Below are positions 9,541 through 21,028 of a stretch of DNA of 64,000 nt, in pieces; position 1 is the first letter of the stretch; each line of letters opens with the position of its first letter. The notes beneath the pieces are model-generated. The model was not told where the DNA came from. It saw only the letters and a program-made list of their open reading frames with translations, and did not search any database. This DNA comes from Desulfoferula mesophila (GTDB taxonomy: Bacteria > Desulfobacterota > Desulfarculia > Desulfarculales > Desulfarculaceae): assembly GCF_037076455.1 (NCBI RefSeq), contig NZ_AP028679.1:2619501-2683500 (forward strand), in the 5' to 3' direction. The position numbers and the translations under genes are program-made.

Positions 9541-11103
9541 ATGGAGGCCATGGTGGCTTCCAGGCCAGGACTCTCTGGAGGAGCGGAAGGGGTGTACACG
9601 GACATGGATCAATGGGCCCGGATCAGACTTGAGTTGCGCGATGGCCAGGCGAGCAAGCGCGAGTTAATGCGTAGAGAGGGCATCCATTGGGATACCCTGC
9701 AAAAGATTCAGAATTTTCCCGAGCCTCCCGGATACCGGCTCAGCACCCCCCGAGCCAAGCCCAAGCTTGGCCCCTACCTTGAGTTGATCGCCCGGATCAT
9801 AAAAGAGGACAAAAAGGTTCCCAAGAAGCAAAGGCACACGGCCACGCGCATATATCACCGCATCAAGGAGGCGGGTTATCAGGGCAAGTACACCCAGGTA
9901 AAGGAGGCGGTGCGCGCAATCAAGCGCGTGAGCCAGGAGGTGTACATGCCCCTGGTCCATCGTCCCGGCGAGGCGCAGGTGGACTTTGGCTATGCCCTGG
10001 CCAAGGTTTCCGGGGAGCTTCGCAAGATAGCGCTTTTTATCATGGCCTTGCCGTACTCCGATGCCTTTTTCGTGGCGGCCTTCGACAAGGAGTGCAGCGA
10101 GAGCTACTGGGAAGGGCATGCCAGGGCGTTCGAGTTTTTCGGTGGGGTGCCCCACCGGATCAGTTACGACAATAGCAAGGTCCTGGTTTCCAAGATCATA
10201 GGGCCTCATGAGCGCAAGCTGACCGATGGTTTTCTCAAGCTGCAGAGCCATTACCTTTTTCGGGAGCATTTTTGTCGGGTGCGGCGTCCAAACGAGAAGG
10301 GCGTGGTGGAAGGGGTGGTCAAGTACGCCCGGCAGAATTTTTTGGTGCCAGTGCCCCAGGTGAAGGACCTGGCCGAGCTCAATGCCATGCTTTTAAGGCA
10401 GTGCCGCGACGACATGAAGCGCCGTTTGCGTGGCAAGGGCGGTAGCAAGGCCGAGGTTTTGCAGGAAGACCAGACAGCCTTTGTCCCCCTGCCTCCCTCC
10501 CGCTTCGATGCCTGCCGCAAACAGCCTACCCGGGCCAATTCATTGTCCCTGGTCCGCTTCGACGACAATGACTACTCGGTGCCGGTGGCTTGTGCCCACC
10601 ATGAAATTGTGGCCAAGGGCTATGTGGATCGGGTGGTGCTCTGCCACCATGACGTGGTGGTGGCCCGCCACTCCCGATCCTGGGGCAAGGAAGGGGTGTT
10701 TTTCGACTACCGGCATTATCTGCCCTTGCTGGAGCGCAAGCCTGGCTCCCTGGACCACGCCCGCCCCCTGGCTGACCTAGATCTGTCTGAGTGCTTTGAG
10801 GTCTTGAGGCGGCGGCTGGTGGCCGGGGAAGACATGCCTGGCCAGGGCACCCGTAAATACATAAAGGTCCTACGTTTGCTGGAGGACCACTCCATGGCCA
10901 GACTGAAGCGGGCGGTGGAGCAGGCATTGTACGCGGGAGCCTATGCCCCGGAGGCCATTGTCCACCTGCTGGAGCCGCCATCATCAGGGCCCGCGGCCAC
11001 CTTCCTGCTGGACGGTCGTGAGCACCTGGGCCGAGTGAGCGTGGCCGGGCCCGATATCACAGTCTATGACTCCCTCCTCGCGCAGGGAGGGGCGCTGTCA
11101 TGA
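9541..11103 (+). CDS. istA: IS21 transposase IstA
   Basis: Up to 520 aa, complete DDE transposase. The N-terminal helix-turn-helix (SKRELMRREGIHWDTLQKI) binds the element ends. The catalytic core starts at PGEAQVDFGYALAKV (first Asp, about residue 150). The second Asp is in GGVPHRISYDNSKV (about 223) and the Glu in RRPNEKGVVEGVVKYAR (about 257-265). A C-terminal beta-rich domain follows. The start is uncertain: ATG 9541 or ATG 9604 (beginning MDQWARIRLELRDG), the latter closer to usual IstA N-termini. It ends with a four-base overlap on istB. Confidence 0.95.
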   Translation: MEAMVASRPGLSGGAEGVYTDMDQWARIRLELRDGQASKRELMRREGIHWDTLQKIQNFPEPPGYRLSTPRAKPKLGPYLELIARIIKEDKKVPKKQRHTATRIYHRIKEAGYQGKYTQVKEAVRAIKRVSQEVYMPLVHRPGEAQVDFGYALAKVSGELRKIALFIMALPYSDAFFVAAFDKECSESYWEGHARAFEFFGGVPHRISYDNSKVLVSKIIGPHERKLTDGFLKLQSHYLFREHFCRVRRPNEKGVVEGVVKYARQNFLVPVPQVKDLAELNAMLLRQCRDDMKRRLRGKGGSKAEVLQEDQTAFVPLPPSRFDACRKQPTRANSLSLVRFDDNDYSVPVACAHHEIVAKGYVDRVVLCHHDVVVARHSRSWGKEGVFFDYRHYLPLLERKPGSLDHARPLADLDLSECFEVLRRRLVAGEDMPGQGTRKYIKVLRLLEDHSMARLKRAVEQALYAGAYAPEAIVHLLEPPSSGPAATFLLDGREHLGRVSVAGPDITVYDSLLAQGGALS

Positions 11104-11876
11104 AGGACCAGGACAAACCCACCGTGCTCTTGGAGTACCACCTCAAAAAGCTGAAGCTGCCCACCATTCTCCGGGAATACGCGGCCATGGCCAAGGTCTG
11201 CAGCCAAGACCGCTCCGATTACATGACCTACCTGCTGCGCCTGACCGAGCGGGAGCTTCTGGACCGCGAGAAGCGGGCAGCCGAAAGGCGCATCAAGCAA
11301 GCCGCCTTTCCGGTGATCAAGACCATGGACACCTTTGATTTCAAGGCACAGCCCTCCATCAATCAGCAGTTGGTCAGGGAGCTGATGAGGGGCGAGTACA
11401 TCGCCAAAAAGGAAAACGTGCTCCTGATCGGAAACTCCGGCACCGGCAAGACCCACCTGGCCAGCGCCATGGCCTTTGCGGCCTGCGCCCAGGGAAGCAA
11501 GGTGAAATTCTACAGCGCCACCGCCCTGGTCACAGAGCTCATGGAATGCCGCGAGGAAAGACGTCTGCAACGCCTGCAGAAACAGCTCCAGCGCCTACAC
11601 CTGCTGGTCATCGATGAACTGGGCTATGTGCCCTTCTCCAAGATAGGCGCTCAAATGCTATTCGAGGTGGTGGGTAGGGCATATGAACAACAAAGCCTCA
11701 TGATCACCACCAATCTCCCTTTCCAGCAATGGACGGAGGTCTTCGGCTCCGAAAGACTCACCGGTGCACTGCTGGACAGACTGACCCATAGGTGCCACAT
11801 CATCGAGGCCAATGGAGAAAGCTACCGGCTCCGCCAAGCCAAAAGACGATCCCAGGCAAAGCCCAAAACCAACTAA
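11100..11876 (+). CDS. istB: IS21 transposition helper ATPase IstB (copy 2)
   Basis: 258 aa, identical to copy 1 except His119 after the Walker A loop (GTGKTHLA), the residue usual in IstB and DnaC-like ATPases. Walker B (VIDELGY) and sensor region (MITTNLPFQQW) are intact. As the fully conserved version in an element with intact ends and target duplication, it is probably functional. Overlap ATGA with istA. Confidence 0.95.
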   Translation: MKDQDKPTVLLEYHLKKLKLPTILREYAAMAKVCSQDRSDYMTYLLRLTERELLDREKRAAERRIKQAAFPVIKTMDTFDFKAQPSINQQLVRELMRGEYIAKKENVLLIGNSGTGKTHLASAMAFAACAQGSKVKFYSATALVTELMECREERRLQRLQKQLQRLHLLVIDELGYVPFSKIGAQMLFEVVGRAYEQQSLMITTNLPFQQWTEVFGSERLTGALLDRLTHRCHIIEANGESYRLRQAKRRSQAKPKTN

Positions 11877-12127: not shown

Positions 12128-13999
12128 TTAAATGTTGCTTAAACCCTTGCGGGGCAGGCATTGAACTCGAGCTTCGGCCAAAATTGTTTGAAGCGACTGC
12201 CCGAACTCCTGCTGCGAAATTGGCCGGTAGGCTTTTTGGAGCCTACCTCTTAGCTCCAGGAAACGTTTGGGATAGCAGAACCTGCGGCATGGACAGCCGG
12301 CACAGGCAGAAAGGCTTATGCAGCGGGGCAAGGGTATCCCTTTCCATGCCCGTCCCTCGGCCTCTGGTGGGTCGCGAAAGTAAAGACTGGCGTACTCGCC
12401 GGCCAGCAGGCGCTTTATTTGCGCTCCAAAGTGGCCTAGGCCATGGGTAGCTTCAAGCAGTTGCGAGATGATGGAGATATCCACCCCTTCCAGCTTAAGG
12501 GAGCAATAATCCCCAAGCAGGTCGCATAGCGCTATCACCTTCTCGTCGGCAGATTCCTGCGGGGCTTGACGCAGGAGTTGCAAGGCGTCTTCCCATCGGC
12601 CCGTGTGGATAAAAAGAAAGGACATGAAAAGCCGTGGGGGAAACCAAAGGTCGTCCAATGGGGCGTGCATGAGGCTTTTGCTCAGCTGATCCTCGAAGCT
12701 TTTGGAGTAAATATCCCCCCGTACAGCGCGAGGGGCCAAGATTTCAGCTATTCTTTCGAGCCCGTCCCTGTTTTCGTCCCTTTCTTCAGACAGACGATAA
12801 ATCAGGGATAAGAGCTCATTCGTCTCATGAAAATGAAAAAAACAGTCGGCTGTGGTCAACGGCCGCGGGGCGGACATTTCACCAATAATTACATGATGGC
12901 TGGGGAAGCCCAGAAAAGAAAAGTCGCGGGCATAGAGCGCGTGACCCATCTCCTTGAGACGGTTGATCAGGAAAGCCAGATAGGCGTGATTGGACTGCCC
13001 TGGCGGGGCAAAGGCCTTGCGGAACGGGGCAGGCGGGGCATCTCGCAACAGGTACGGTAGAGTCGCATGGATGTTGTCGAACAACGCCAGGGGTAGATCC
13101 CGGCCCTTGCTCCAGCTTGAATAACGGTGGGGCAGCTCGCGACGTCCCTGATAAAGTTCAGTGATACAGCGTTCCAGGGCTATCTCGAATACCGGGTCGC
13201 AGCCGTAGTCCAAGCCAAAGCGGTCTCGTTCATGGTCAATGAGAATAACCGCCAGTACGGGAATTTTCCCATCCAGGGTGCAGTCCTTGACGATGATCTC
13301 CAGCCCAGCCCTGCGCAGGTCCTCCAGCATGGCCAACATGCCGGGTGAACCTATGGGCAGTTGTTTCAGGGGGATGGTTGGCATGGCCTGGACCCGGGCC
13401 TGGACCAGTAGTCGGAGCGGGTAGCGCTCCATCACTTCGCAGATTCCCTGAGTCAAGGCCTCTCCGGCTGTGTTTCCTGCGGCCATCCCTGTGGATGTGC
13501 AATTCAATAGCATTAGGCGGTAAGGCAGCAATCGCTCCCTTCCGGCGAAAACGTCCCAATAGGGAAGACAATCCAGGGTATCGCAGGAAAGGGCCGAGGG
13601 ACTTTCGATCAACTCGGCCATGAGTCCCGGCGTTTCTCGCCACAATTCCGCCACCTGCACCGGCTTGGTGTCGTGGAAAAAATCCGGCCCTGAAAACATC
13701 ATCCCCAAACGCGTAGTGCGCATGGAGTGCACGCATTGCAGCCGTTCCATGAACTCGCCAAAGGCGCTGGCCAGGGCTAGTTCCGGGGTGACGCCCTTCC
13801 CATTGGCCGTGTAAATGGGTAACCCTGGGTCCGCTATCAATAGGGAGTGACACCTGGGCTGGGGATGGTAGCGGGAACACGGCTTCAGGTCTTGGAAGCC
13901 AAGATTTTCTAGAATTCCCCTTATTCGCGCAACTGTGCCCTCTGGGGAATAATCCTTATGATGATGAAATTCAGGCTCAGGAAGTACTTGTGCCATCAC
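12128..13999 (-). CDS. YcaO-domain protein with Cys-rich C-terminus (RiPP-type modification enzyme)
   Basis: Up to 623 aa. YcaO enzymes use ATP to activate peptide or protein backbone amides, making azolines, amidines or thioamides. Visible YcaO motifs: NGKGVTPELALASAFGEFMER at about 66-86 (Glu82, Glu85) and TSTGMAAGNTAGEAL followed by CEVMER (about 168-192). A helical TPR-like part (FIHTGRWEDALQLLRQAP) recalls the C-terminal half of E. coli YcaO. Five cysteines at about 560, 566, 569, 571 and 575 could bind metal. The PxPxP tail of azoline-forming YcaOs is absent. The start is GTG 13999 or ATG 13996, with AAGG close by. It is the last gene of the RiPP locus. Confidence 0.9.
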   Translation of the reverse strand: MMAQVLPEPEFHHHKDYSPEGTVARIRGILENLGFQDLKPCSRYHPQPRCHSLLIADPGLPIYTANGKGVTPELALASAFGEFMERLQCVHSMRTTRLGMMFSGPDFFHDTKPVQVAELWRETPGLMAELIESPSALSCDTLDCLPYWDVFAGRERLLPYRLMLLNCTSTGMAAGNTAGEALTQGICEVMERYPLRLLVQARVQAMPTIPLKQLPIGSPGMLAMLEDLRRAGLEIIVKDCTLDGKIPVLAVILIDHERDRFGLDYGCDPVFEIALERCITELYQGRRELPHRYSSWSKGRDLPLALFDNIHATLPYLLRDAPPAPFRKAFAPPGQSNHAYLAFLINRLKEMGHALYARDFSFLGFPSHHVIIGEMSAPRPLTTADCFFHFHETNELLSLIYRLSEERDENRDGLERIAEILAPRAVRGDIYSKSFEDQLSKSLMHAPLDDLWFPPRLFMSFLFIHTGRWEDALQLLRQAPQESADEKVIALCDLLGDYCSLKLEGVDISIISQLLEATHGLGHFGAQIKRLLAGEYASLYFRDPPEAEGRAWKGIPLPRCISLSACAGCPCRRFCYPKRFLELRGRLQKAYRPISQQEFGQSLQTILAEARVQCLPRKGLSNI

Positions 14000-14234
14000 C
14001 TTGTTACTGGCGCAGGTTTTGGTTTTTCCGGCGGACTCGACACTTTGGCGCTTAGGGACGGGTGGCTTCTTTGGCCACGGGAGGATATGCCTTGCGGGAT
14101 TGCCTCTCTGGGACGCCGCCTCTTGGGCCCTCTCACATCCACTAGGTGTTTAGGTATCAATGTTCAGCCATGCGGGTCGCCACGGCAACCCAGGCCACGC
14201 ATATAGGGCCGGGTGGATTATTGGGAGCGCGTAG
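14000..14234. other. Spacer between the precursor gene and the YcaO gene
   Basis: I see no convincing gene or terminator in these 235 bases. A minus-strand GTG-initiated frame of about 50 codons ends just at the YcaO start, but its sequence (Arg/Pro/Lys-rich, no family resemblance) and lack of a ribosome-binding site argue against it. The gap may allow a separate YcaO promoter or a processed transcript. Confidence 0.4.
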
Positions 14235-14483
14235 CTACGCACAAAGCCCAAATTTAGTAAACGTGGCCCTTTTCTCCAATTCCTCAGCCGTGAGAGGAGT
14301 GTCCTGGTCCAGATAAGGCAGGACAATATGGCGAACCGAGGCGGTGTCTTCCAGGACCTTTAGTTCCACGCCAGCCGGCGGTGCGGCGCCCTTTTCCTCC
14401 AACACGGCACGGGGGTCGGCTATGAACCGGGCCTTGAGTTCGGCATCAGCAAAGATATCCGCAAATAGGCTATTCAGGTCCAT
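14235..14483 (-). CDS. RiPP precursor peptide with NHLP-type leader
   Basis: 82 aa. Residues 13-56 match the nitrile-hydratase-alpha-like leader (NHLP) family: ELKARFIADPRAVLEEKG, then GVELKVLEDTASVRHIVLP. Such leaders are recognised and removed during RiPP maturation. The candidate core is the last ~26 residues (from YLDQDTPL to TKFGLCA), with four Thr and a single Cys two residues from the end. There is no double-glycine site. ATG 14483-14481 is chosen because TAGGAG stands seven bases upstream; the longer frame to 14534 has no such site. Transcribed after the M50/PqqD gene and before YcaO. Confidence 0.85.
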   Translation of the reverse strand: MDLNSLFADIFADAELKARFIADPRAVLEEKGAAPPAGVELKVLEDTASVRHIVLPYLDQDTPLTAEELEKRATFTKFGLCA

Positions 14484-14541
14484 GGTAATACTCCTAACCG
14501 ATAGAGGCTTATTTGTTTTGGTCAGGTTTTCCATACGAATG

Positions 14542-16194
14542 CTAGCACTTTATAAGGATTTCGTGCAATCGCCTCTTGACATAACAGTTGTGACCGGCCT
14601 GAAAGATTTTTTGCGCAATAGTGGCCACAAGTAGGACAACACCAAACCAGAACCAATAGCGATGTACCTGGTAAAAGGGGTTATAGGATAGCTTCCAGGC
14701 CAGCAGTCCCAACAATCCCAGCCCAAACAGTGGTGAGATAACTCCATATCCAACCAGCGTCATCCGCTGCACTTTGCTCAACGGTTTTTCCCAATGCATT
14801 GGGCGCCTGCGCAGCACATTCATGAGATAAGTCTGAGAGTCGCTTTTGAGCCTGGGCAACCCGGTAAAATCGGCGAGGATGTAATATCCGTCCAGTTTCA
14901 GCACCGGCAACAGGTTGAACACGGCCAAGAACATGGAGATCATGGCCAAAGCTCCGCAAAAGTGGCCGGCCCCAGTGGCTCCAATTCGGACGAGGGCTAG
15001 CTCCATCCAGGCCAATACGCAGGCCATGACCAGGTTGGACATGGGCCCGGCAAAGGAGACCGCCATGCGCCGCCATTTATCCGCAAAACCCCAAGAGGCG
15101 CTGGTATCGCAGTAGGCCATAATGCACCCGTAGTAGACCATGAAGCCAAAGCAACCCACCGTGCCCCCATTGCGCTGGCAGGTCAGGGCGTGGGATAGCT
15201 CGTGGATCACAACGATCAAACCCAGGCAAAGGTAAAAGGCCAACAGGCCCCAGAAGGAGAGCCAACCCAACACCTTGATGGGATTTTCAAAAACATGATG
15301 GTACTCGTCGAGATTAAAATTGAAGATGATTAGAGAAACCACCACGAAGGAGACCCAGAACGGCAACATGGATCGGCCATAGAGCCAGCCTAAGGACCGG
15401 CCCAGCCATGCCATGCGTTCGGAACTGTTGCGTATTGGCAGGTCCAGCGTGAGTAGGTGGTTCAGGCGGCGCCACCAAGTACTTTTCGCCTCTTCTCGGA
15501 AAAGACGCTGGCCCAGGACGATCATCCCCGCTTTGTACAATTGCTCCACCAAGCCTCCGAGCTGCCTTGGCTGAAACAAACCGAACCGGCTCACGAGTTC
15601 TCGGTAAATATCCCGCAAGGAGGTATTGCCGTCCATGGCCTGGACCGCGGCCATGCCCATGGGCGGGAGGCGAAGGATTTGTTCGGCCTTTTCCCGGGAG
15701 AGCACTCCCGAGCCGTCCGGAGCCGAAGAAACAACAACCCCTTTGGCCACGCCAGGGCGCAAGTTAAGAAAGTACAGCTCCCCGATCCGCCCTTCGGCCC
15801 GGGTGAACTGTGCAAGCCTAAGGAAGACCCGACCGGACTCCTCGTGCCAGAGGACCCTGTCTGCTCCTTGCACGGCCTGGGCGAGGGCGGCCGGTGTTAA
15901 TTCACCACCGTTTTGAAGCGATATGTGTTTGGGAAATTCAATGGTTACTGCTAAACAAAAATCATAGGGCTCAAAAAGGAAAGAGGCACTTTGTTTATCG
16001 AAAGACTTCGTTTCCTCGATTGCGTGGGCCACGGCGAGCACCGCACCCTTGAGATTTTCCTCTAGGGGCCCACCAATACCGCAACAACCAGACCAAAAGC
16101 TCAGTACCTTCTCGAGTTTGCCGTAATCAATACGCCCCAGTGGAAATTCAATCTTCCTCTCCCTGGGTTGTGCTTGGAGGTTCGCATTACGCAT
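14542..16194 (-). CDS. M50-family membrane metalloprotease with PqqD-like domain
   Basis: 550 aa from ATG 16194 (TTG 16230 would add 12). Residue numbers here count from the TTG. Residues ~25-165 loosely resemble an RsbW-like ATPase fold. Residues ~178-242 (ILRLPPMGMAAVQAMDGNTS, LVEQLYKAGMIVL) match a PqqD-like RiPP recognition element. The rest is a multi-helix protease with zinc motif HELSH at 343-347 and a second ligand region VLKLDGYYILAD near 440-452. PqqD-like domains bind leader peptides, so this fusion could be the leader peptidase or exporter for the adjacent precursor; that role is inference. No strong ribosome-binding site is visible at either start. Confidence 0.85.
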   Translation of the reverse strand: MRNANLQAQPRERKIEFPLGRIDYGKLEKVLSFWSGCCGIGGPLEENLKGAVLAVAHAIEETKSFDKQSASFLFEPYDFCLAVTIEFPKHISLQNGGELTPAALAQAVQGADRVLWHEESGRVFLRLAQFTRAEGRIGELYFLNLRPGVAKGVVVSSAPDGSGVLSREKAEQILRLPPMGMAAVQAMDGNTSLRDIYRELVSRFGLFQPRQLGGLVEQLYKAGMIVLGQRLFREEAKSTWWRRLNHLLTLDLPIRNSSERMAWLGRSLGWLYGRSMLPFWVSFVVVSLIIFNFNLDEYHHVFENPIKVLGWLSFWGLLAFYLCLGLIVVIHELSHALTCQRNGGTVGCFGFMVYYGCIMAYCDTSASWGFADKWRRMAVSFAGPMSNLVMACVLAWMELALVRIGATGAGHFCGALAMISMFLAVFNLLPVLKLDGYYILADFTGLPRLKSDSQTYLMNVLRRRPMHWEKPLSKVQRMTLVGYGVISPLFGLGLLGLLAWKLSYNPFYQVHRYWFWFGVVLLVATIAQKIFQAGHNCYVKRRLHEILIKC

Positions 16195-16226
16195 AACTAA
16201 ATGCGGCCCCGTTTTGCATGAAGGCG

Positions 16227-16460
16227 TCAAATTTCGTTCAAGATAGTGAGGTCTTCCCGTTGCACTAATATGCCAAGAGTCCTCAAACTAGCTGATCTGC
16301 TCCCGATCAATTTATCATGTTCTAGGGTTAATTCTTGTTCATTTTGATCTCCCCCAAATTCTGCAACAAGGGAAGGGCAGCATGATAGTCCCATCGCAAT
16401 GAGGTGTAGGGGGCGCGAGGCCACAAATCTGGACCAAGTCATGGCTAGGGGGTGCTTCAT
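16227..16460 (-). CDS. Small ORF upstream of the M50 gene (uncertain)
   Basis: 77 codons ending in a TGA that overlaps the TTG alternative start of the M50 gene. It includes a Cys pair (GLSCCPSLVAEFGG at about 24-37) and a polar C-terminal half. No ribosome-binding site precedes the ATG and I recognise no family. It could be a second precursor, an N-terminal exon-like relic, or a chance frame. Listed only because of its position at the head of the locus. Confidence 0.3.
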   Translation of the reverse strand: MKHPLAMTWSRFVASRPLHLIAMGLSCCPSLVAEFGGDQNEQELTLEHDKLIGSRSASLRTLGILVQREDLTILNEI

Positions 16461-16551: not shown

Positions 16552-16594
16552 AATGGTCTTGGGTACTTAGAGACCATTAAAGGGAGGGTTGACC
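16552..16594 (+). ncRNA. Possible IS110 bridge-RNA stem-loop
   Basis: A perfect 8-bp stem with an 11-base loop lies in the leader of the transposase gene. IS110-group elements encode a bridge (seek) RNA in this region whose loops carry copies of donor and target sequence. TTGGGTA at 16559-16565 (last stem base plus start of the loop) also occurs at 16502-16508, next to the left junction. The match is short; full RNA boundaries are not determined. Confidence 0.3.
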
Positions 16595-17629
16595 ATGATT
16601 TATGTTGGCATGGACATTCACAAGAAGACCACGACTTTTTGCGCTTTGGATCAGGAGGGCAAAGTCATCCACCGGGGTACGGTTCCCAGCGGTGAAACTG
16701 GATGGCTTGATGCAATCCATCGTTGGCCCAAAGACGAAATAGCGGTTGCTCTTGAAACTGGCTCCATGACCTGGTGGGTGGTGGATGTGTTGCGTGAGGC
16801 TGGAATTGAGCCCATCGTGGTCGACGCCCGTCAATTCAAAATGATCGCCGACAGTAAGAAGAAGAGCGACCGCCACGATGCCCGGGCCCTTGCCGATGGG
16901 CTGCGAGGTGGCTTGGCTGAGCGAATCGCGGTCAATGTGCCTAGAGAAAAAGCACGTCGGGCCCGCTCTTTGATGCAGACTCGGCAGCAAATTCTCAAGC
17001 AGCGCAATATGACGGTAAACGCAGTAAAGGCCATGCTGCGTTCGGTTGGGGTGGAGATGAAAAAGGCCCAATGGCCCAAGGATAGCCACTGGGAAAAAGT
17101 CCTTGATAATCCGGCGGTGCCCATTTGGATGAAGCCATTCCTGATCACCCAACGCAGCATCTGGGACCACTTGGAGCAGCAAAGGCAGGAGTTTGATGCC
17201 TTGGTCCATGAGGAGTTGAGCTGTTGGCCTGAGGCGCAACTGCTTCTGGAGATGCCCGGTTTCGGCCCCATCGTCACCCTGGGCATTCTCAGCGGCATAG
17301 ATGACATAAAGCGTTTCAGGCGCTCAAATCAGCTGGCCAGTTATGCCGGTCTGATCCCCTCGTCCCGTGACAGCGGAGCGGTGCAACGCCGGGGAGGGAT
17401 AACCCGCCAGGGACGAAGTCTGATGCGCTATTTCGCGGTGCAGGCCGCCTGGGCGGCCATGCGCAGTAAGAATCTCACGATCCCTTTGCGTAAATGGTCC
17501 CGCAGGCTGATTGTGAAGCGGGGAAAGAAGGTGGCTGCAGTTGCCTTGGCCAGAAGACTTCTAGTCCTGGCCCACAAGCTATTGACCACCGGAGAAGTTT
17601 ATAACTCCAAATACCCAGTCGTGGCCTGA
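16595..17629 (+). CDS. IS110-family transposase (DEDD recombinase)
   Basis: 344 aa. The RuvC-like DEDD domain begins at once (IYVGMDIHKKTT, first Asp); Glu is in VALETGS near 56 and the Asp pair in SDRHDARALAD near 94. The C-terminal transposase_20 domain contains LEMPGFGPIVTLGILSGI and the serine-bearing stretch LASYAGLIPSSRDSG. Length is normal. ATG 16595 follows GGAGG at 16584-16588 by six bases; TTG 16589 would add two residues. The frame is intact, so the element may be active. Confidence 0.93.
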   Translation: MIYVGMDIHKKTTTFCALDQEGKVIHRGTVPSGETGWLDAIHRWPKDEIAVALETGSMTWWVVDVLREAGIEPIVVDARQFKMIADSKKKSDRHDARALADGLRGGLAERIAVNVPREKARRARSLMQTRQQILKQRNMTVNAVKAMLRSVGVEMKKAQWPKDSHWEKVLDNPAVPIWMKPFLITQRSIWDHLEQQRQEFDALVHEELSCWPEAQLLLEMPGFGPIVTLGILSGIDDIKRFRRSNQLASYAGLIPSSRDSGAVQRRGGITRQGRSLMRYFAVQAAWAAMRSKNLTIPLRKWSRRLIVKRGKKVAAVALARRLLVLAHKLLTTGEVYNSKYPVVA

Positions 17630-18184: not shown

Positions 18185-18562
18185 CTACCCCAACCCCTCG
18201 CCGTTCAGGATTGTCGATTCTGTGGGACAAATCGGCCCGCGAGTCCCGAAGAAAAATTCTTCTGGCGGCCTGCCACCGACCCCCTTCCGCCGGGGATTGG
18301 TGCCTTTTCTGAATCCATGCAGGCAACAGTCCTCATCGTAGAGCATGTGGCCGTTGCATCGAGCCACGCTGGATGGCGAGCCGGCGCAGCTTAAACAAAA
18401 TTTATTGATCTCTAGCAGGGCCCTGTTTTTGACCCCGTCCGGCAGCCTGTTAAGGCGGTACACATGGAGTTGACAATCCACGGAGGTGCACTCCCTAACC
18501 AGGACGTGACTGCCGCACATACAATAGAGGCACTGTTCTCTGATGGCTTTGCGGGGGGTCAT
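18185..18562 (-). CDS. Cys-rich phage-type zinc-binding protein
   Basis: 125 aa with a duplicated cysteine pattern. The first module has Cys at 11, 14, 16, 25 and 30 (QCLYCMCG, RECTSVDC). The second begins near residue 57 (FCLSCAGSPSSVARC, DEDCCLHGFRKGTNPRRKG). The second module resembles small prophage proteins of deltaproteobacteria whose motifs read KAIR.KCL.C and CP..DCPLYPYR. AAAGGAG stands seven bases before the ATG, so translation is plausible. Its position upstream of terminase debris fits a late phage region. Function unknown; structural zinc is inference. Confidence 0.7.
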   Translation of the reverse strand: MTPRKAIREQCLYCMCGSHVLVRECTSVDCQLHVYRLNRLPDGVKNRALLEINKFCLSCAGSPSSVARCNGHMLYDEDCCLHGFRKGTNPRRKGVGGRPPEEFFFGTRGPICPTESTILNGEGLG

Positions 18563-18801: not shown

Positions 18802-20310
18802 ATGCTGACGGTGGAAACAATCGGCAAGATCAGGCTGAAGCACAGGCAGGGTAAGTCCATCCGGTCCATATCCCGGGAGCTGCGGCTCTCTCGTAATACG
18901 GTCCGCAAGGTACTGCGCGGAGACGAGACCGAGTTTAGCTACCAGCGCGGTCACCAGCCCTACCCCAAGCTGGGGGAATACATTAAAGATTTGGAAGGCT
19001 TTCTGGCGGAGGACCAGAAGCTTCCCCAGAAGCGGCGGCGCTCGGCCCAGGTGCTTTTTGAGGATCTGGTGGTGCTGGGCTACGAGGGTGGCTACGACAG
19101 CGTGCGGCGCTACGTGGGCCGGTGGCGGGATGAGCACAAGAGGCTGGCCGCGCCGGTTTTCATACCACTGAGCTTTGGGCCGGGACAGGCGTTTCAGTTT
19201 GATTGGAGCGAGGACCAGGCCGAGTTGGATGGAGTGACGGTAAAGGTCAATTTGGCCCAGATCCGGCTTTGCCACAGCCGTCTGTTTCTGGTCCAGGCCT
19301 ATCCCCGCCAAAGCCAGGAGATGCTCTTTGACGCCCACCGGCGGGGCTTCGCCTTTTTCGGCGGGGTCTGCTCCCAGGGCATCTACGACAATCCCAAGAC
19401 CATGGTGAGCAAAATCAAGCGGGGCAAAAAACGAGTGTTTCATCCTCGCTTCATCCAGCTTTGCTCTCACTATCTCTATGAGCCGGTGTTTTGCACCCCC
19501 GGCGCGGCCTGGGAGAAAGGTCAGGTGGAAAACCAGGTGGGTCTGGTGCGCCGCCGCTTTTTCACTCCCCGGCCCAAGGCCAAGGATCTTGCCGAGCTTA
19601 ACCGCTGGCTACGGGACCAATGTGTGGCCTGGGCCATGGGCCGCAGGCACCCCAGCATTCCCGGCAAGACGGTTTGGGAGGTTTTTGAGCAGGAGCGGGA
19701 GCACCTGATCAAGGTGGGGCGTCCCTTTGACGGCTACTCAGAGGAAAACACCAGGGTGTCCAGCTACGGCCTGGTGAGCTTTGACCGCAATCGCTACAGC
19801 GTGGAGTGCACCCAGGTGGGCAAGACGGTGCAGATCAAAGCCTATGCCGATCACGTCGTCATAGTGAGCCAGGGCCAGGTGGTGGGCCGTCACCAGCGGA
19901 ACTTTGGCCGGGACAAGATGATCTTCGATCCCTGGCACTATCTGACGGTGCTGGAGAGAAAGCCGGGCGCCCTGCGCAATGGTGCCCCCTTTATGGACTG
20001 GGAGCTGCCCCGCCCCCTGGAAAGGGTGAAATCTTATCTGAAAAGGTTTTCCGATTGGGACCGTCAGTTTGTGTCCATTCTGGCCGCGGTGCCCAGTCAT
20101 GGCCTGGAAGCGGTGGCCGCAGCCTGCCGGGAGGCCTTGGTCCAGAAGGCAGTGAGCCAGGAGATCATCCTAAACATCCTGCATCGGTCCCAGGACCAGG
20201 ATGACCATCCCCGCCTGGAGCTTCCCGGCCATCTGATCCTCAAGCACGAGCCGGTGGCCGATTGTGGCCGGTACGACCTCCTGCGCCTGGAGGCCCGCCA
20301 TGACGCGTGA
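18802..20310 (+). CDS. istA: IS21 transposase IstA (second type)
   Basis: 502 aa. The N-terminal helix-turn-helix is at about residues 12-38 ([20 protein letters not shown]). The DDE core has [11 protein letters not shown] (first Asp near 135), [16 protein letters not shown] (second Asp near 196) and [11 protein letters not shown] (Glu near 240). A C-terminal domain with [19 protein letters not shown] follows. ATG 18802 comes after GGGAGG and GGAG sites at about 18785-18800. It overlaps istB by 11 bases. Full length and uninterrupted. Confidence 0.95.
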
Positions 20311-21028
20311 GGATGTGATGCAGGCCATGAAGCGGCTGAGACTCAATGGCATGCAGTCCATCTATCCCGAGCTGCTGCCCGAGGGGATCAAGAACCGCTG
20401 GGGACCGGAGAGGATTTTGCTGGAGCTTTTGCAGGCCGAGGAGGCCGAAAGGCGCCTGCGCTCCATCCGCTACCGTCTCTCCCAAGCCAAATTTCCCATG
20501 GGCAAGGACCTGGACAGCTTCGATTTTAAAGACTCACCGGTGAATGAAGAGCACATCCGCCACCTTTACCAGGGCAGTTTCGTGAGCGACCGCCGTAATC
20601 TGATCTTCATCGGAGGCACCGGTAGCGGCAAGACCCACTTGGCCATCGCCATCGCCCGCCAGGCGGTCAAGGAGTGCTGCAAGGGGCGTTTCTATAACCT
20701 GGTGGACCTGGCCAATGACCTGGAGAGGGAAAAGCTGGAAGGCCAGGGCGGGAGGCTGGCCGACAAGCTGGCCCGCATGGACCTGGTGGTGCTGGACGAA
20801 CTGGGCTATCTGCCCTTTTCCAAGAACGGCGGCCAGCTCATCTTCCACTTGGTGTCCAAGCTCTACGAGCGGACCTCCATCATCATCACCACCAATCTGG
20901 CCTTTGGGGAATGGACCCAGGTCTTCCACAGCGCCAAGATGACCACCGCCCTCTTGGATCGCCTGACCCATCACTGCGACATCATCGAAACCGGAAACGA
21001 AAGCTGGAGGCTCAAGAGCAGGTCCTGA
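20300..21028 (+). CDS. istB: IS21 helper ATPase IstB (second type)
   Basis: 242-aa AAA+ ATPase. Walker [12 protein letters not shown] is near residue 103, Walker [13 protein letters not shown] near 160, sensor region [15 protein letters not shown] 20300 is chosen because GGAGG at 20287-20291 stands eight bases upstream; the GTG at 20264 lies well inside istA. It keeps the usual His after the Walker A lysine-threonine. Confidence 0.95.

Follow-up and report, generated by a model that had tools for sequence, protein, structure and literature searches.

An NHLP-like precursor, an E. coli-type YcaO enzyme and a membrane protease form a probable compact RiPP locus in Desulfoferula mesophila

The window analysed here is a stretch of 64,000 nucleotides of Desulfoferula mesophila (contig NZ_AP028679.1, positions 2,619,501 to 2,683,500), whose genome consists of one contig of 4,479,191 bases. 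On its minus strand lie three neighbouring open reading frames, all of them intact, which in order of transcription encode an M50 intramembrane metalloprotease, a precursor peptide with a leader of the NHLP type, the only one in this genome, and a YcaO enzyme (Table 1). The protease and precursor ORFs are separated by 7 nt, the precursor and YcaO genes by 235 nt. The initial annotation had read these genes as a RiPP locus, and their open frames, their family matches and the recurrence of the set in a metagenome-assembled genome (MAG) of the same genus (G010) confirmed that the grouping is real. The segment 16231-16460, which had been counted with the protease, is an ORF of its own (77 aa) that matched no family.

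Family matches also confirmed the IS21 and IS110 elements on either side. Together with a second IS21 nearby, these elements seem to belong to an island rich in IS copies and lower in GC, and not to act as functional borders (GC 0.52-0.58 at the locus vs mostly 0.60 or above around it in the window). No inverted repeats were found around the locus edges, no Rfam family matched, and the 235-nt gap between the precursor and YcaO genes gave no sign of RNA structure (z-score 0.47). A 125-aa Cys-rich ORF with no significant family match lies between the IS elements (18185-18562, minus strand).

Table 1. Features of the three-gene locus and its surroundings, in window coordinates.
Feature	Position	Strand	Basis or remark
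YcaO enzyme, 623 aa	12128..13999	-	start GTG 13999 or ATG 13996; PF02624 180 bits
YcaO C-terminal four-Cys motif, C560-x5-C566-x2-C569-x5-C575	12275..12322	-	
NHLP precursor, likely CDS of 82 aa	14235..14483	-	ORF opens at 14534; TIGR03793; family alignment
L(X)4L motif LTAEEL at the leader end of the precursor	14277..14294	-	sequence
Putative core TFTKFGLCA, one Cys, no preceding Gly-Gly	14238..14264	-	boundary inferred from alignment
M50 intramembrane metalloprotease, 550 aa	14542..16194	-	ATG 16194; TTG 16230 possible
RsbW/SpoIIAB-like (GHKL fold) N-terminal domain of the protease	15790..16155	-	Foldseek; HATPase_c_2 in the G010 orthologue
PqqD-like (possible RRE) domain of the protease, weak	15511..15693	-	TIGR03859 12.3 bits; alignment
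HExxH zinc motif HELSH of the M50 domain	15190..15204	-	H, E, H invariant in nine homologues
IS21 element (IstA, IstB)	9541..11876	+	Mu-transpos_C_2, IstB_IS21
IS110 transposase	16589..17629	+	PF02371, PF01548
Second IS21 near the locus	18802-21028		

The precursor matched TIGR03793 with 47.3 bits (E 1.3e-12), slightly under the cut-off of 50.9, and its G010 orthologue scored 57.3 bits, over this cut-off, so that the NHLP-type leader originally proposed stands. Translation likely starts at the internal ATG at 14483, which has TAGGAG 7 nt upstream. Since a Gly-Gly motif and a linked ABC system are hallmarks of NHLPs according to Haft et al. 2010 (PMC2887384), and no Gly-Gly precedes the core in the window or in the other aligned Desulfarculaceae peptides, we call the precursor NHLP-like rather than a canonical TIGR03793 member. 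Most of these aligned leaders end in an E-R-(L/M)-A-A type stretch, directly followed by short, mostly Cys-containing cores, and the cores of both three-gene sets (...TFTKFGLCA in the window, ...SVWASICCVD in G010) have Cys near the C-terminus; a Bacillota precursor in locus L050 has Gly-Gly. The core Cys is the sole Cys of the window peptide, the metal-binding Cys motif of nitrile hydratase being lost. The initial annotation had considered that the peptide might prove to be the end of a nitrile hydratase gene; this was rejected because the ORF stands alone and the NHase_alpha match (31.9 bits) is confined to the end of the profile.

The YcaO enzyme turned out to be of a type that had gone unnoticed. 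Its best score against curated families was with NF040716, the E. coli YcaO model (153 bits, cut-off 700), and in a tree of 19 YcaO domains it grouped with the G010 enzyme and four Bacillota proteins (95/93); this group joined E. coli YcaO (EcYcaO; 100/99), and RRE-YcaOs, methanogen YcaOs and the second YcaO of the same genome fell outside it. The nucleotide-site motifs (ExxER, ExxER, RxxxExxQ) are conserved. Four C-terminal Cys are invariant in the six enzymes of the group, hereafter Cys4-YcaOs, which span two phyla; the motif is missing from EcYcaO and from the PqqD-YcaOs examined. Its C-x2-C-x5-C spacing resembles that of SPASM-type iron-sulfur motifs, and it is a candidate metal or Fe-S site (the AF2 model of the enzyme, pLDDT 64, is too weak for the geometry of the four Cys). 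Identity to EcYcaO is only 27%, and chemistry can therefore not be transferred from one enzyme to the other.

Work published in 2026 showed that EcYcaO thioamidates ribosomal protein uL16 independently of TfuA and depends on the tertiary fold of this substrate (PMC13063428). According to Rice et al. 2026 (PMC13063428), YcaOs that modify uL16 are acidic, and EcYcaO-group members lacking this acidity occur in RiPP-like loci; a general connection of the lineage with RiPPs is thus already on record. The window enzyme belongs to the EcYcaO clade and lacks the high acidity of the uL16-modifying enzymes: its pI of 6.3 (5.8 for the G010 enzyme), vs 4.4 for EcYcaO, argues against uL16 as its substrate. 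A search of the genome gave no TfuA match, so the locus does not classify as a TfuA-type thioamitide pathway.

Alternatively, the YcaO could be a stand-alone cyclodehydratase that turns the core Cys into a thiazoline or thiazole, and the locus a stripped-down azole (TOMM/LAP) pathway. This is possible but on balance unlikely. A Cys near the C-terminus of both three-gene cores would suit it, as would the azolines that MprC makes on NHLP cores (PMC12455567) and the relatives within the family that have RRE/YcaO fusions and a SagB dehydrogenase alongside NHLPs. However, the window YcaO lies outside the SagD/TOMM branch and scored 53.7 bits against TIGR03604, with a cut-off of 219, neither an RRE/E1 partner nor a dehydrogenase gene was seen in the locus, and the ORFs around the YcaO gene include no partner gene; on these grounds we rejected its assignment to the TOMM/LAP cyclodehydratases.

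The second YcaO of this genome, which has a TPR C-terminus, directly adjoins a gene resembling the sulfur carrier DsrC (L045, 822-1139 and 1264-3003; about 1,285,300-1,287,500 in G000:C1). Related proteins were present in 44 of the 118 phylum genomes sampled, with a DsrC-like gene within about 1.5 kb in six of 30 loci (upstream in four Desulfarculaceae, downstream in two others). This neighbour provides a lead on sulfur delivery to YcaO enzymes.

The protease carries an M50 domain (PF02163, 53.6 bits) with a conserved HELSH motif and a conserved C-terminal motif of the Asp-Gly type, LDGYY. Its best curated family was the daptide protease MpaP (NF041824, 139.7 bits), over the PqqD-like and M50 regions; with a cut-off of 300 and no daptide enzymes seen nearby, daptide protease membership was rejected, and membership of the epipeptide and pearlin pathways was considered and set aside. 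Of the membrane metalloprotease with a PqqD-like domain described in the initial annotation, the M50 part was thus upheld while the PqqD-like part stayed weak. PqqD was detected in homologues only, below its cut-off, and the segment aligns to the PqqD regions of PqqD-M50-HlyD proteins that are themselves below it; profile-profile comparison with RRE-YcaO N-termini, based on very shallow alignments, gave no support, a PDB profile search of the region returned nothing relevant, and the AF2 model has low confidence here.

Upstream of this region the protease has a divergent N-terminal domain, initially missed, which resembles the anti-sigma factors RsbW and SpoIIAB. The G010 orthologue matched HATPase_c_2 with 29.8 bits, over the cut-off, and a Foldseek search with the domain model had its best PDB hits in RsbW (6m36; TM by target up to 0.75, prob 1.00, E 0.005-0.03), UsfX and SpoIIAB (over all three, TM of about 0.6-0.75 and E from 0.004 upward). 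Since a PDB profile search with the domain alone reached RsbW only at E 0.67, we base the assignment on the HATPase_c_2 match and the Foldseek result. The AF2 model of the whole protein (pLDDT 51 overall, mostly 62-85 in the N-terminal domain) is too weak for judging membrane topology. M50 matches outside the family in the phylum sample align from the PqqD-like region onward, without the RsbW-like domain, and the plasmid M50 matches, including annotated MpaP proteins, also have none.

That an M50 protease replaces the usual peptidase-transporter (PCAT), as proposed at the outset, gained support. A Peptidase_C39 search of the complete genome gave no match, none of the loci read showed an ABC peptidase transporter, and the aligned NHLPs of the family have no Gly-Gly before the core; several relatives carry C39 proteins somewhere in their genomes, among them G010, where it lies away from the locus. 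M50 proteases have an established role in RiPP release, as in EpeP, TglG and TmoG (PMC10885120). The RsbW-like domain allows a different role, that of a regulatory site-2 protease sensing the peptide, with the domain as a sigma-factor switch, rather than a leader peptidase. M50 proteases often control anti-sigma factors, and the resemblance to RsbW/SpoIIAB fits such a role. Yet the nearest curated families are proteases that mature daptides and epipeptides, the locus shows no gene for a sigma or anti-sigma factor, and the genome has no other, C39-type leader peptidase, all of which makes regulation improbable as the main task of this protein.

Recurrence in other genomes was consistent with a functional unit. 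NHLPs were present in seven of the 21 genomes of the order, and the long RsbW-like/PqqD-like/M50 protease occurred in all seven of these vs one of the 14 others (Fisher p 6.9e-5, a value that ignores relatedness among genomes and is therefore a description more than a test), so that protease genes never found with an NHLP, which would have spoken against the initial annotation, are not what we see. The single exception (G003, 71% complete) has the protease on a short contig, with no NHLP seen. The three-gene set that the initial annotation had suggested looking for elsewhere was found in G010 (L041; L048 = JANQFN010000418.1), in the order NHLP-YcaO-M50 and with an apparent degenerate second NHLP. 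Because the set recurs in another order within the genus and NHLP and protease occur together, we consider the association more than chance. The full set was carried by these two genomes only among those searched, and the same two are the only ones of the order with a Cys4-YcaO. Plasmid searches gave no close three-gene relatives, a phylum sample of 395 genomes yielded at E < 1e-50 only the Cys4-YcaO of this genome, and a Bacillota-wide sample of 348 genomes no further one at E < 1e-30.

The wider family offers several variations. In the Desulfarculaceae loci L036 and L037 an NHLP and the same type of protease are accompanied by RRE-YcaO, SagB and radical SAM genes. L035 (6697-10620) combines a GrrM/OscB-type radical SAM enzyme (TIGR04261, over cut-off) with an RsbW-like/M50 protease and an NHLP that has hardly any core (...ERLAAVI). 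The large NHLP locus in L040 (4009-17312) has an RRE-YcaO along with one SagB-like and four radical SAM-like ORFs, as judged by eye; its two precursors end in QCCSCSG and QCCCCCTP, its protease is of the type found in the other loci, and no PCAT was noticed. Among the Bacillota, a MAG (G407, contig C3; L050/L097) groups a pair of Cys4-YcaOs with three NHLPs (GG being present in one or more of these), a Nif11 precursor and a Clo7bot-like radical SAM enzyme in a region of about 15 kb, and two Clostridia genomes (L049, L051) have solitary Cys4-YcaOs with no obvious precursor or protease nearby.

The locus might also be a decaying island, gene remnants between IS elements whose product is no longer made. 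The flanking IS21 and IS110, the lower GC, the divergent N-terminal domain of the protease and the apparent degenerate second NHLP of G010 point that way, but the three ORFs are intact and the catalytic motifs conserved although the YcaO has only 41% identity to its G010 relative, and decay is accordingly a poor explanation. A housekeeping uL16 thioamidation enzyme lying beside the NHLP and M50 genes by chance, as the EcYcaO clade and the top-scoring E. coli model could suggest, is very improbable given the non-acidic pI, the four-Cys motif that EcYcaO lacks and the sporadic occurrence in two genomes of the order, both times beside NHLP and M50.

Most likely, then, the three neighbouring genes make one small modified peptide, and we regard it as probable that they do so as a compact RiPP pathway in which the YcaO modifies a leader-delivered core and the M50 protease removes the leader. 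The leader is expected to adopt the fold of other NHLPs and to present its short C-terminal core, whose backbone amide the YcaO would activate with ATP. NHLP leaders are folded, and the RRE of MprC recognises helix 1 and L(X)4L in them; L(X)4L is required in MprE7, and SrpI, which is without an RRE, relies mainly on this motif (PMC12455567). The window leader keeps L(X)4L, and no RRE is recognisable in the YcaO or fused to it, nor is a partner found next to it, which suggests that its recognition of the folded leader is probably direct, in the manner of EcYcaO with folded uL16. The RsbW-like/PqqD-like/M50 protease would bind the leader and cleave it at the membrane in place of a PCAT, the cleavage site and export of the product being likewise presumed.

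As to the product, we tentatively lean towards a thioamide. The sulfate reducers of the Desulfarculaceae are likely to live in sulfide-rich habitats, which would favour thioamidation; a thiazoline at the core Cys is nearly as likely and is a serious contender. A more specific and rather doubtful proposal is a TfuA-independent thioamidated RiPP, in which the RRE-less YcaO of the E. coli lineage would read the folded NHLP leader, its four-Cys site (zinc or Fe-S, possibly involved in sulfur delivery) would put sulfur into the core, and the membrane protease would release the product under control of the anti-sigma-factor-like domain.

The initial annotation had seen here a possible undescribed RiPP class, which is not established. 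M50 proteases have precedents in the epipeptide, pearlin and daptide pathways. The interest of the locus lies partly elsewhere than first supposed, in the type of YcaO and the architecture of the protease. We found no description of this gene set in the open-access literature, and the pairing of an E. coli-type YcaO with a membrane protease in place of a cutting exporter appears undescribed. The need for a folded substrate sets EcYcaO-type enzymes apart from most YcaOs, and the source of sulfur for EcYcaO is a question posed by Rice et al. (2026; PMC13063428). A small operon apparently pairing an EcYcaO-type enzyme with its own short substrate is a simple two-gene test system that could address both. 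Moreover, the locus makes a clear genomic case for an intramembrane protease taking over from the peptidase-transporter that NHLP pathways use, and the RsbW-like/PqqD-like/M50 architecture tracks with NHLPs across the Desulfarculaceae.

Compared with known systems, the window YcaO shares with E. coli YcaO its clade, the nucleotide-site motifs, a C-terminal helical region and the lack of TfuA, and differs from it in sequence, pI and its four-Cys C-terminus and in adjoining a peptide gene and a protease gene. NHLP/TOMM azole pathways (PMC2887384; PMC12455567) likewise have an L(X)4L leader, a short Cys-containing core and a YcaO enzyme, whereas the window locus has no RRE/E1-fused cyclodehydratase, dehydrogenase, Gly-Gly site or peptidase transporter. 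The daptide protease MpaP represents the curated family closest to the window protease, which scores below its cut-off, carries the extra RsbW-like domain and has no daptide enzymes seen nearby. Epipeptide and pearlin proteases (EpeP/YydH, TglG, TmoG; PMC10885120) are also membrane M50s that release RiPPs without a PCAT, in pathways that have other modifying enzymes and neither an NHLP nor an E. coli-type YcaO. The other Desulfarculaceae loci L035, L036, L037 and L040 share the Gly-Gly-less NHLP and the RsbW-like/PqqD-like/M50 protease and combine them with radical SAM enzymes, or with an RRE-YcaO and SagB, in place of the Cys4-YcaO.
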